Shown in pieces: positions 52,524 through 55,476 of a DNA stretch of 64,000 nucleotides (the first letter of the stretch is position 1; each line of letters starts with the position of its first letter). The stretch comes from an uncultured Bacteroidales bacterium. GTDB lineage: Bacteria; Bacteroidota; Bacteroidia; Bacteroidales; Muribaculaceae. The DNA is taken from positions 1-64,000 of the forward strand of contig CAMWHE010000006.1 in the NCBI GenBank assembly GCA_947173955.1. The letters run 5' to 3'. Below the pieces are notes generated by a model. It was given only the letters and a program-made list of their open reading frames with translations, searched no databases and had not been told where the DNA came from. A program made the translations under genes and the position numbers.

Positions 52524-52543
52524 TCCTAAATTGGAGGGGTTAC

Positions 52544-52744
52544 TTACACCATGTTGCTATCATAAATGAGTGCCGGAGACTCGTTGTTATGACCAGTGTA
52601 CTTACTCTCAGCAGATTTAATCGGCGTTCTCCAAATGCCTGGCGGGAGATATATGATAAACCGCGCACGCTGGCCTTCGGCCTCGGCGTACACGGTTACT
52701 GGTAAATCGATGTCCTGCCGGACATCCGCCTTATTATCTGACAT
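52544..52744 (-). CDS. Possible small protein downstream of the restriction-like gene
   Basis: A 66-codon frame starts MSDNKADVRQDIDLPVTVY and contains AEGQRARFIIYLPPG. It lies on the same strand 66 bp after the nuclease gene, so it may be its third operon partner. Codon third positions look protein-like in the first two thirds. I do not recognise the sequence, and it could be a remnant or chance frame. On the opposite strand a second frame of similar length covers the same bases, which lowers confidence. Confidence 0.3.
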   Translation of the reverse strand: MSDNKADVRQDIDLPVTVYAEAEGQRARFIIYLPPGIWRTPIKSAESKYTGHNNESPALIYDSNMV

Positions 52745-52810
52745 TTATCATACAAGATGGGTACTTGATTATATAGTACTCACATTATTTAAGTGACAAA
52801 TTATATGTCC

Positions 52811-53662
52811 CTACAATGCCTCAAATTGCATGGGTAATTTAAAAGGATACTTATCCTTTATTTCTTGCCACGTCTTGAATTGGATGTGATTTGAATCAAT
52901 ATATGTACCGAATTTTTCTAAAAATGCTTTTATATCTTCGTTAGTCGCAGGGTTATTACCATCCGTAATAAATATGACATATTTTTTATCATTATCTGCA
53001 CGAATTATATTTCTGAATATCTGATAATTCAGTAGAATATCTTCTGCGGTAGCGTTGTCTTTAAGATATTCCGGCAACAGTTTCTCATATTGACGAGCCT
53101 TGCACTTATGACGTTCATCTGCATCCTTTTTCTCTTTAGCAAATCCGTCTTCCGTGAATTTTATCTCAAAATAGACTTCAACTTTATCATCTTTGATATG
53201 GAAATCAAAAGAAGTCCCTTCATTTTCCGATTTACCCAAAACATCAAACTTAATGTCTTCCTTGTATTCAAAATCGCATTTAGCTCCCTCATGAATTTCA
53301 ATATTGAAAGCATCCTTCATAAATTTGACCATCTCTTTAGTGGCACAATGCTTTACATCAATTAGTTTTGAAAAAAACATCATGCATAGAATCTGAGAAG
53401 AATTAACATGATGTGCATACTGATGTAATCCTCTTAAACCGGGAAGATATGGCTTGCAGTCGAATTCAAAGTACTTTTTAATTGCATCTGCGCGATTACG
53501 AAGAGTATTATCATTGTTCTTTAATGGAAGAATATGCTTTTTCAAATACTCTTTACCATTGCGTACATATGTTCCACATTCCCAATTCATATCCTTGGTA
53601 AGGACTTCTAACACTCGGTCTGTGTAATTTGCGTGACTTACACTCTGCGTTTTTGTTGTCAT
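52811..53662 (-). CDS. PD-(D/E)XK nuclease, PGN_0703-type putative restriction endonuclease
   Basis: From ATG 53662 it is 283 aa. The nuclease core is visible as Asp153 (TSFDFHI) followed by Glu166-Ile-Lys168 in VEVYFEIKFTEDGF, the PD-ExK pattern. The strand-loop-strand layout and flanking sequence recall the PGN_0703 family of putative restriction endonucleases, by memory of pattern only. No methyltransferase gene is nearby, so it is not an ordinary type II pair. It is AT-rich compared with its neighbours, suggesting transfer. It follows the SLOG-sigma gene by 44 bp on the same strand. Confidence 0.75.
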   Translation of the reverse strand: MTTKTQSVSHANYTDRVLEVLTKDMNWECGTYVRNGKEYLKKHILPLKNNDNTLRNRADAIKKYFEFDCKPYLPGLRGLHQYAHHVNSSQILCMMFFSKLIDVKHCATKEMVKFMKDAFNIEIHEGAKCDFEYKEDIKFDVLGKSENEGTSFDFHIKDDKVEVYFEIKFTEDGFAKEKKDADERHKCKARQYEKLLPEYLKDNATAEDILLNYQIFRNIIRADNDKKYVIFITDGNNPATNEDIKAFLEKFGTYIDSNHIQFKTWQEIKDKYPFKLPMQFEAL

Positions 53663-53706
53663 AATAAATTGCAATTAGATGGTTAATAATAAATATATTG
53701 GTTGAA

Positions 53707-54417
53707 TTATCTACTTAGTGCCTCTTCGATGCTTTGTCTTATCCACCGGATGGCGTAGGTCGTGAATTTGAATCCTTGCGACGGGTCATATTCATAGGCA
53801 GCCTGTATCAGTCCTTTGTTTCCCTCTGCAATCAGTTCCTCAATGGGATGATTCGCTGTAACATATTTCATAGCTGTTGTCTTAACAAACCGTCGGCACG
53901 CGAGCAGCAGTCTGTCTTTCGCGGCATCGACGTCGCCCTCTCGGGCTTTGATTTGCCGGACAAGCGCTACTTCTTCTTCCACTGTGAGAAGGTCTTCCCG
54001 CCGGGTATCATCAGAATAATCCATATGACAGTTTGATATGGATTGATTTGATGCTATGGGCTCATCGGCAAATACAACAAGGGCATTTTTCCCATATCCA
54101 TACGATACCCCGGCATCCTCTACGCGGGATATTTTTGCCACAGACCGTGTAGTGAATGCTACTACCATATCGGCATCGTCAATAAGTGCATTATTCCGCG
54201 CCAGCTTTGATTCAGCCTCGTCAGTTAAACAATTAAACACTGAAATCGGTATCGAGAATTGAACGGCATACTTTCTCACATAAGAGTTCAAAAGCGTATC
54301 GCCTCCGGTGATACGAAATTCCGATACTGATTTTTTCCAGAAATGATGACGGAAGATTCTCACCCAATCATGATAGGAGAGTGTGGGATTTATAGTCCCG
54401 ATTATAGCTAACTTCAT
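53707..54417 (-). CDS. Fusion of SLOG-like sensor domain and sigma-70 regions 1.2-2
   Basis: The 236-aa product has two unrelated halves. Residues 1-118 look like a SLOG (YspA/DUF2493-like) Rossmann domain: KLAIIGTINP, the loop ITGGDTLLNSYVRKYA, FSIPISVF, and RNNALIDDADMVVAF, followed by YGYGKNALVVFAD. SLOG domains bind nucleotides or related ligands in many conflict systems. Residues 143-236 match primary sigma factor regions 1.2 and 2: LLTVEEEVALVRQIKAREGD, then IEELIAEGNKGLIQAAYEYD and FKFTTYAIRWIRQSIEEALS. The protein ends just after region 2.4, with no region 3 or 4. It could bind RNA polymerase core and melt or recognise a -10-like element, but the biological role is unknown. Confidence 0.8.
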   Translation of the reverse strand: MKLAIIGTINPTLSYHDWVRIFRHHFWKKSVSEFRITGGDTLLNSYVRKYAVQFSIPISVFNCLTDEAESKLARNNALIDDADMVVAFTTRSVAKISRVEDAGVSYGYGKNALVVFADEPIASNQSISNCHMDYSDDTRREDLLTVEEEVALVRQIKAREGDVDAAKDRLLLACRRFVKTTAMKYVTANHPIEELIAEGNKGLIQAAYEYDPSQGFKFTTYAIRWIRQSIEEALSR

Positions 54418-54650
54418 TTATATATAAAAAAATTGGTGCTATATATATTATACGATCGAGATTTTTGGGAAATGTATCTTTTTGTTAAAATAGATATTTC
54501 AAAACACAACACTTCACGAATTCCTCGGCGTAAAGCAATGATAATACAGACTATACGCGTTAGAAAAGTTTAACTTAAAAATTTTAACAAATACATTTCT
54601 CATAGAATCTTAGCCTCGGGCTTCCCCTCCTTAGCGTTTGTTATTATACG

Positions 54651-54963
54651 AAAAAAGCGTAGGAATCTGTATCTGTTGCCGTCTTACCATTGGAGGCTTC
54701 TCGCATTGCCTTTAGATGTCGAACGGCAACAGCGACGCCTACGCCAGTATATGCTACAGATGCTTTCGGCCTCATCACTCACGGGACGATCTGCCGGACG
54801 CATGATATCACATACTAACAGGCATCTACCGTTGCTACTCCTTGACATCTAAGTGAATCTTGCGAGAATTCCCAATGGACAAGAATCAGCGCGGATAAAC
54901 GCTTCAATATTTAATGCAGCTCTCACGCATTGCCCTTAGCCGGGCATAGGCGATACGGTCTGT
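54651..54963 (-). ncRNA. Candidate structured noncoding RNA, about 310 nt
   Basis: No ORF of note exists here. A good minus-strand promoter (54969-55000) predicts a start near 54963. The 3' end forms a terminator-like structure: CCTACGC/GCGTAGG (54738-54744 with 54657-54663) stacked on ACGGCAACAG/CTGTTGCCGT (54723-54732 with 54673-54682), then six T on the minus strand. Nine bases in the enclosed loop (54712-54720) are perfectly complementary to 54844-54852, a candidate pseudoknot. AATGC/GCATT and GCCC/GGGC hairpins lie near the 5' end. GGCAATGCG occurs twice (54702-54710, 54926-54934). It does not match tmRNA, RNase P, 6S or SRP RNA as I know them. The 230 nt between it and the SLOG-sigma ATG (54418-54650) show no gene. 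Confidence 0.55.
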
Positions 54964-54968
54964 TACTG

Positions 54969-55000
54969 CAAATGTACAGCTATTTTTCAATTAATACAAG
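54969..55000 (-). promoter_or_regulatory. Promoter of the candidate ncRNA
   Basis: On the minus strand CTTG (54997-55000) is followed by exactly 20 nt and TACATTTG (54969-54976), a full match to TAnnTTTG. Confidence 0.65.
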
Positions 55001-55068
55001 AAGACTGTCAACCCATACACTTTGTAACTGAGGGAAAGCGGAACTATTTCATAGGTTCAGGCGTTATA

Positions 55069-55455
55069 ATGACAGAACTAACAGTTAATACCATGACACA
55101 AAAAGAACTAACAGACCTGATCGCCTCTAAAGTAGCGGAAGTCCTTAATAATCCTGAAAGCTGGGGCGAAGACCCTCAGATAAGTATAGTCCCGACAACC
55201 CTTATCGTCGAAATCGAGCGGCGCGGAGATGCCGACCGCGACATCGAGTACAGCGACTATGCCATCGAGGCTGACGCTGTAGAAGACGGCGACTACTCGG
55301 AAGATGCAGCAGATTTCCAGTCGGCTTCCGACCCTGACCTCTACCCCATCGGAACTCTTATCGACTATGCGACTAAGAAACCCGACCTGAAGAAAATCGC
55401 CAAGCTGGTAGAGCAGTATATCCCGGAGCAGTCGGAGAACCTCTACGCCGAGTAA
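55069..55455 (+). CDS. Hypothetical acidic protein
   Basis: The 128-aa protein is strongly acidic, with clusters such as DAVEDGDYSEDAADF and DRDIEYSDYAIEADA in the middle. The N-terminus (MTQKELTDLIASKVAEVL) and C-terminus (PDLKKIAKLVEQYIPEQSENL) look helical. An internal ATG at 55105 is an alternative start. I do not recognise a family; acidity suggests a DNA mimic or a binding partner, but this is speculation. It is 22 bp from the convergent cardiolipin synthase gene. Confidence 0.6.
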   Translation: MTELTVNTMTQKELTDLIASKVAEVLNNPESWGEDPQISIVPTTLIVEIERRGDADRDIEYSDYAIEADAVEDGDYSEDAADFQSASDPDLYPIGTLIDYATKKPDLKKIAKLVEQYIPEQSENLYAE

Positions 55456-55476
55456 CTCCGAGCGGTTAGATTTACA

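Follow-up and report, generated by a model that had tools for sequence, protein, structure and literature searches.

A sigma-70 region 2 module, fused to a SLOG relative or arrayed in tandem, encoded directly upstream of PD-(D/E)XK nucleases

The window, i.e. the whole 64,000-nucleotide stretch of gut-bacterial DNA analysed here, carries a gene whose product joins a SLOG-derived domain to a fragment of a sigma-70 factor, and this gene is followed by one for a PD-(D/E)XK nuclease. Sigma region 2 (sigma-2) is usually regarded as a component of the machinery that initiates transcription. In the present loci it appears as an evolutionary unit in its own right, either joined to SLOG or repeated in arrays, and adjacent to a nuclease gene wherever this can be checked. 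The fusion, the order of the two genes, a separate lineage of sigma-2 domains, selection on both halves of the fusion, a private upstream element and an insertion polymorphism are all observed. From these features we infer, tentatively, a mobile controller-plus-nuclease cassette of two genes, probably anti-phage, in which the sigma-2 protein would bind the element and control the nuclease in cis. The initial annotation of this DNA recognised the fusion; the neighbouring nuclease gene, the arrays of repeats, the private element and the mobile insert escaped it.

The fusion gene and its distribution

The fusion gene lies where it was first placed, at 53707..54417, and is on the minus strand. It has an ATG start, encodes 236 amino acids and stops directly after sigma region 2.4. 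Residues 1-119 (54061..54417, minus strand) constitute the N-terminal SLOG-derived domain, in which phosphate-loop signatures are lost, and residues 139-236 (53710..54003, minus strand) the sigma-70 region 1.2-2.4 domain. A search with the SLOG half in 397 genomes of the family, a survey of the kind proposed in the initial annotation, yields six further fusions, which are 37-47% identical to the window protein. All seven, found in three genera of the one family, have the same two domains and a common end point. In the order at large, 393 sampled genomes yield no others.

Pairwise dN/dS values for close pairs are 0.11-0.15 in the sigma half and 0.25-0.56 in the SLOG half; both halves are under purifying selection. 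The single architecture and end point of seven fusions, together with these values below 1, rule out a frameshift, a chimera or other assembly artefact, and also a two-gene or chance origin of the frame, which had been read as one gene and proves to be one. The viral contigs searched contain neither fusion nor array, their matches being ordinary sigma factors, and this argues against a phage origin of the fusion. Phage and plasmid records show matches to region 2 only, at less than 60% identity; the best phage record has 29% identity over 83% of the query.

In the fusion gene of genome G004 (L018:8935-9660), regions 1.2 and 2 are separated by an in-frame TGA; the nuclease gene of this locus is intact. 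For the G001/G004 pair (the L002/L003 fusion genes), dS is 0.20 in the SLOG half and 0.89 in the sigma half, an inequality that points to recombination at the domain border.

The nuclease partner

The window nuclease gene (52811..53662, minus strand) is 44 nt 3′ of the fusion gene and on the same strand. Its product of 283 amino acids is a PD-(D/E)XK nuclease of the PF22558 'REase-ARP' type (Pfam 1.1e-26); the ATG is at 53662, and there is an upstream TTG at 53674. A PD-(D/E)XK nuclease gene directly follows the sigma-2 gene, on the same strand and after a gap of 15-44 nt, at all eight testable loci, i.e. those where the contig extends far enough to check the next gene. The catalytic residues D126, E141 and K143 (D...ExK, numbered by the first row of the nuclease alignment) are invariant in all aligned partners. 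With a nuclease as partner, the conflict or defence setting that was originally suggested is plausible. Reading of the open reading frames revealed nothing methyltransferase-like in the insert that bears the cassette or in its immediate neighbours, and no known defence genes besides the nuclease adjoin it in the window.

The nucleases of the window and of the G105 cassette belong to one family (53% identity). Those of the other loci are of a divergent PD-(D/E)XK family and are mostly missed by the PF22558 model, the G001 nuclease matching it at 1.7e-7. The window nuclease is a PF22558 member, unlike those of most other cassettes, which fall outside the model. A profile built with the window nuclease among its rows had pointed to a single family, but an independent profile comparison did not join the groups, and so they are named here as divergent families, at least two by sequence comparison. 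Sigma-2 lineages appear to have swapped nucleases, since the sigma-2 domain of the window clusters with those of G165 and G228 (support 92/83) although its nuclease family is shared with G105.

Outside the bacterial family, at L150:3255-6631, a gene for a PF22558-like nuclease lies downstream of one for an 833-amino acid HATPase (sacsin-like by eye). This nuclease thus teams with other sensor types as well.

A separate lineage of sigma-2 domains

Searches that started from the nuclease uncovered sigma-2 arrays. Locus L082 encodes a protein of 332 amino acids with two sigma-2 repeats, and L077 one of 428 amino acids with four; neither has a SLOG domain, and both genes are directly upstream of the nuclease gene. 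Pfam likewise counts two and four Sigma70_r2 copies in these arrays. The two-repeat protein is that of the G105 cassette, and it also has a region-4-like tail.

A tree was constructed from 36 region-2 sequences that included RpoD, phage sigma factors and short sigma-2 open reading frames not linked to a nuclease. All 12 nuclease-linked domains are on one branch (support 99/98), apart from these three groups. The single branch, and the existence of arrays without SLOG, indicate that the module is a sigma-2-derived lineage of its own in which SLOG is an optional extra.

Properties of the sigma half

The Pfam Sigma70_r2 model matches residues 173-234 with an E value of 6.7e-14, and the match to region 1.2 (residues 136-158) is weak (0.0016). 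Residues 139-234 align to residues 348-443 of E. coli RpoD (PDB) without any change in length, so the protein stops just past region 2.4, in agreement with the initial annotation. The AlphaFold2 (AF2) model has pLDDT values of 92-98 over this half. Regions 3 and 4 are missing: no fusion among the seven extends past region 2.4, and hence all are without region 4, which binds the -35 element and the beta-flap. Region 4 is needed for a functional promoter-recognising sigma factor.

Regions 1.2-2.4 are ~50% identical to those of the Bacteroidales primary sigma factors (RpoD, sigma-ABfr). The fusion differs from these factors in its lack of regions 3 and 4, in its place on a separate branch and in altered core- and DNA-contact residues. 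W433, R436, Q437, L384, D403 and Q406, which in sigma-70 contact core or recognise the -10 element, are variably replaced among the sigma-2 domains; position 433 is R, W, C, Y, G or V and position 437 is Q, E, L or K. About half of the residues that read the -10 element or bind core are conserved, and the -10-pocket aromatics F427, Y430 and W434 are retained. Conservation shows no clear bias toward a face (core 0.41, DNA 0.53, other 0.47), and preferential conservation of the core- or DNA-binding face is not usable as an argument either way. What persists is the fold. With regions 3 and 4 absent and the -10 and core residues variably replaced, a sigma function of the fusion protein is doubtful, and so is the initial proposal that it re-programs transcription.

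Ancestry of the N-terminal half

A single-sequence Pfam search with the N-terminal 120 residues matches no family. The fused SLOG domain does match stand-alone proteins of 116-118 amino acids from the same bacterial family (8.8e-8), and one such protein of the 116-amino acid type in turn matches DprA (PF02481, 9.7e-12) and the YspA-type YAcAr model (2.4e-6). In a profile-profile comparison, fused and stand-alone SLOG domains align over their full length (99.3%, E 5e-20). The AF2 model of this half has a pLDDT of 82, and its best TM match by Foldseek is the SLOG protein YpsA of B. subtilis (TM 0.70, prob 1.00, E 0.004). SLOG ancestry is therefore sound. The profile search that was to decide the matter came out blank with the single sequence and positive through the stand-alone relatives; the structure prediction, also proposed at the outset, agrees with the latter.

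The 'GGD loop' on which the SLOG assignment was partly based is not a family signature. The canonical GGAKGVD loop is replaced by GGDTLLN in the window and by DGETLLN or GGETLLN in the relatives, and both the GGAxGxD phosphate-loop signature and the S-x-GT motif are lost in the fusions. Thus the domain resembles the YspA/YAcAr and DprA branch of the SLOG superfamily in fold and in distant sequence homology, and differs from it in the loss of these motifs and in being joined to a sigma-2 domain. The fused SLOG relative is probably ligand-blind, and the idea of ligand control in the initial annotation loses its footing, also because SLOG is dispensable in the arrays.

An island of several genes recurs in the same family (L071:1-6238; similar at L070, L072-L076, L078, L080 and L081). 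It encodes a stand-alone SLOG protein, a protein of ~235 amino acids and a second protein, both of unknown type, a PD-(D/E)XK nuclease related to those of the cassettes, an FtsZ/tubulin-like GTPase (1e-9) and a metallophosphatase; RtcB and a WYL regulator are encoded close by. Gene content differs from locus to locus. The fused SLOG domain probably derives from an island of this type.

The private upstream element

A 17-nt element, ATCGTATAATATATATA, is found at 54440..54456 on the minus strand, 22 nt upstream of the start codon of the fusion gene. It is identical in eight of nine cassettes, these being the seven fusions and the four-repeat gene; the G105 cassette alone is without it. The distance to the start codon is 18-22 nt in the fusions and 46 nt in the four-repeat array. 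The element contains TATAAT and is non-palindromic.

Of 61 relatives, three have the gene, and the 16-nt core of the element is confined to these, with a single copy in each. Among 225 genomes of the family it is present in nine, i.e. the eight cassette genomes and G243, where the match is attributed to chance as it lies within recQ. Matches with two mismatches are not commoner than for a control pattern. The association between element and cassette is strong, with a Fisher p of 6e-13 that is uncorrected for relatedness. Genomes with the nuclease and no sigma-2 protein do not have the element, which thus tracks the sigma-2 protein and not the nuclease. The primary sigma factor of the host group, sigma-ABfr, reads TAnnTTTG (PMC7366714) and not TATAAT, so the element is no ordinary host promoter.

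Farther upstream are two boxes that form an inverted pair, one of the TTTTAACA type at 54476..54491 and its partner, ~90 nt away, at 54568..54602 (TGTTAA...AAGTTAAA). The TGTTAA...TTAACA core of these boxes (54476-54602 in the window) is conserved in the eight aligned loci. In the window sequence the complementary boxes can fold as RNA (z -2.5), but the alignment displays no covariation and there is no Rfam match, and a structured leader RNA is not supported. The boxes are read as putative DNA sites.

Insertion and mobility

The cassette is part of a 2.95 kb insert (52524..55476) between convergent genes for a ClC channel and a cardiolipin synthase. Four congeners have the same convergent junction with only 3-37 bp between the two genes, and this represents the empty site. 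The GC content of the nuclease gene is 0.34 vs 0.54-0.56 in the flanking genes.

In addition to the fusion and nuclease genes, the insert contains an open reading frame of 128 amino acids (55069..55455, plus strand) for which no family was found and whose membership in the cassette is unproven. An open reading frame of 131 amino acids is near the G105 cassette (L082:7841-8236, minus strand). The two carry a similar acidic stretch (EDAADFQSASDPDLY and ESATDFQSAQDPDFY, respectively), and are thus near both of the PF22558-type cassettes.

Relation to described systems

None of the family models, defence models and papers searched describes the fusion, the arrays or the link to a nuclease, in keeping with the initial statement that no family with this fusion was known; within incomplete coverage of the literature, nothing was found on SLOG-sigma fusions or sigma-2 decoys. 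Of the described systems, the one that comes closest is MZA, an anti-phage system whose component MzaA is a region-2-containing protein of the sigma-70 family. The MzaA HMM matches the window protein (1.7e-13) and, at 3.2e-43, four segments of the four-repeat array. Region 2 is the only part in common: MzaA models are ~680-730 amino acids long and belong to a five-gene system, and mzaB-E are absent among the neighbours of the window cassette. Cassettes of a nuclease and a partner are already known; the sigma-2 partner itself is new.

Possible roles of the cassette

In the reading tentatively preferred here, the first gene would encode a protein derived from sigma region 2, specialised and no longer competent for transcription initiation; in the window this copy of region 2 is fused to the SLOG relative, and elsewhere it forms tandem arrays. 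The second gene would supply the nuclease. Alone or docked on RNA polymerase, the sigma-2 protein would act in cis on the TATAAT-containing element before its own gene and thereby set the expression of the nuclease, and perhaps its activity as well, in the way that C proteins govern restriction enzymes. The C proteins of restriction-modification systems are HTH proteins (Xre-type) with palindromic C-boxes and accompany a methyltransferase. In these systems a small regulator gene lies directly upstream of a restriction-like nuclease gene and a conserved private element precedes the regulator, and it is this same order in the cassettes that suggests a controller. Unlike C-protein systems, the cassette has a sigma-2/SLOG protein, a non-palindromic element and no methyltransferase. 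The element is invariant and the -10 residues vary, so canonical -10 recognition cannot explain it. The lack of the element in the G105 cassette, the four repeats, which a simple promoter binder would not be expected to have, and the want of a nearby methyltransferase or of an adjacent defence gene other than the nuclease in the window also count against a controller. The private element makes the idea directly testable.

Second in rank is the possibility that the sigma-2 domains mimic the host primary sigma factor and act as bait for phage proteins that take over sigma or RNA polymerase. Captured bait would free or trigger the nuclease, and tandem repeats would provide more bait. This would explain better than a controller why the domain also occurs, without SLOG, in arrays of two and four. 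Strong purifying selection on the fold, while the working surfaces of sigma change, and a truncation that takes away the promoter-recognition regions 3 and 4 fit as well, and phages do target the primary sigma factor, AsiA and Alc being examples (PMC7824862). However, ~50% identity to host RpoD and changed exposed faces make for poor mimicry of RpoD itself, and the private element is left unexplained. Perhaps the whole is a sigma-decoy immune system in which single or arrayed copies of host region 2, uncoupled from transcription, are the bait, the paired nuclease is unleashed and SLOG is a repurposed scaffold, but this is unlikely. Should either control in cis or a decoy be correct, a fragment of the bacterial sigma factor would have been made to serve a DNA-cutting weapon as its sensor or switch.

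Less likely again is an antitoxin-like partner that would silence the nuclease by direct binding and repress its own operon at the upstream boxes. It would explain the operon logic, i.e. partner first, nuclease second, short gaps and an operator-like private element, and the cassette is mobile and patchy. Yet one partner family is kept with at least two divergent nuclease families, which is not expected of a dedicated inhibitor interface.

The model of the initial annotation, in which a minimal sigma factor under ligand control would globally re-program or block transcription in the host, is improbable. The sigma-2 fold with F427, Y430 and W434 is kept and SLOG ancestry is real, but the SLOG ligand signatures are lost, arrays do without SLOG, regions 3 and 4 are absent, and W433/R436/Q437 and L384/D403/Q406 are replaced; the private element never recurs in the family genomes scanned, hence there is no visible regulon. 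A chance fusion or a decaying, functionless remnant, for which the in-frame TGA of the G004 homologue and short degenerate sigma-2 frames elsewhere might speak, is very improbable and strongly disfavoured by dN/dS values well below 1, with seven fusions over three genera and a conserved operon and element also against it. The probability that is left goes to explanations not foreseen here.

Other sigma-2-like reading frames

Open reading frames of 115-126 amino acids that consist of sigma-2 only are found at L163:2839-3186, L164:3408-3788 and L166:887-1255. They have degenerate regions 2.2 and 2.4 and no nuclease nearby, and they are on a separate branch. Those at L163 and L164 adjoin a gene for a 5′-nucleotidase-like protein, and L163 also has a WYL gene. 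A viral contig of 161 kb has two adjacent open reading frames (L214:3995-6734) of 353 and 514 amino acids, both of which have a sigma-2-like stretch in the N-terminal portion ahead of a long C-terminal part.
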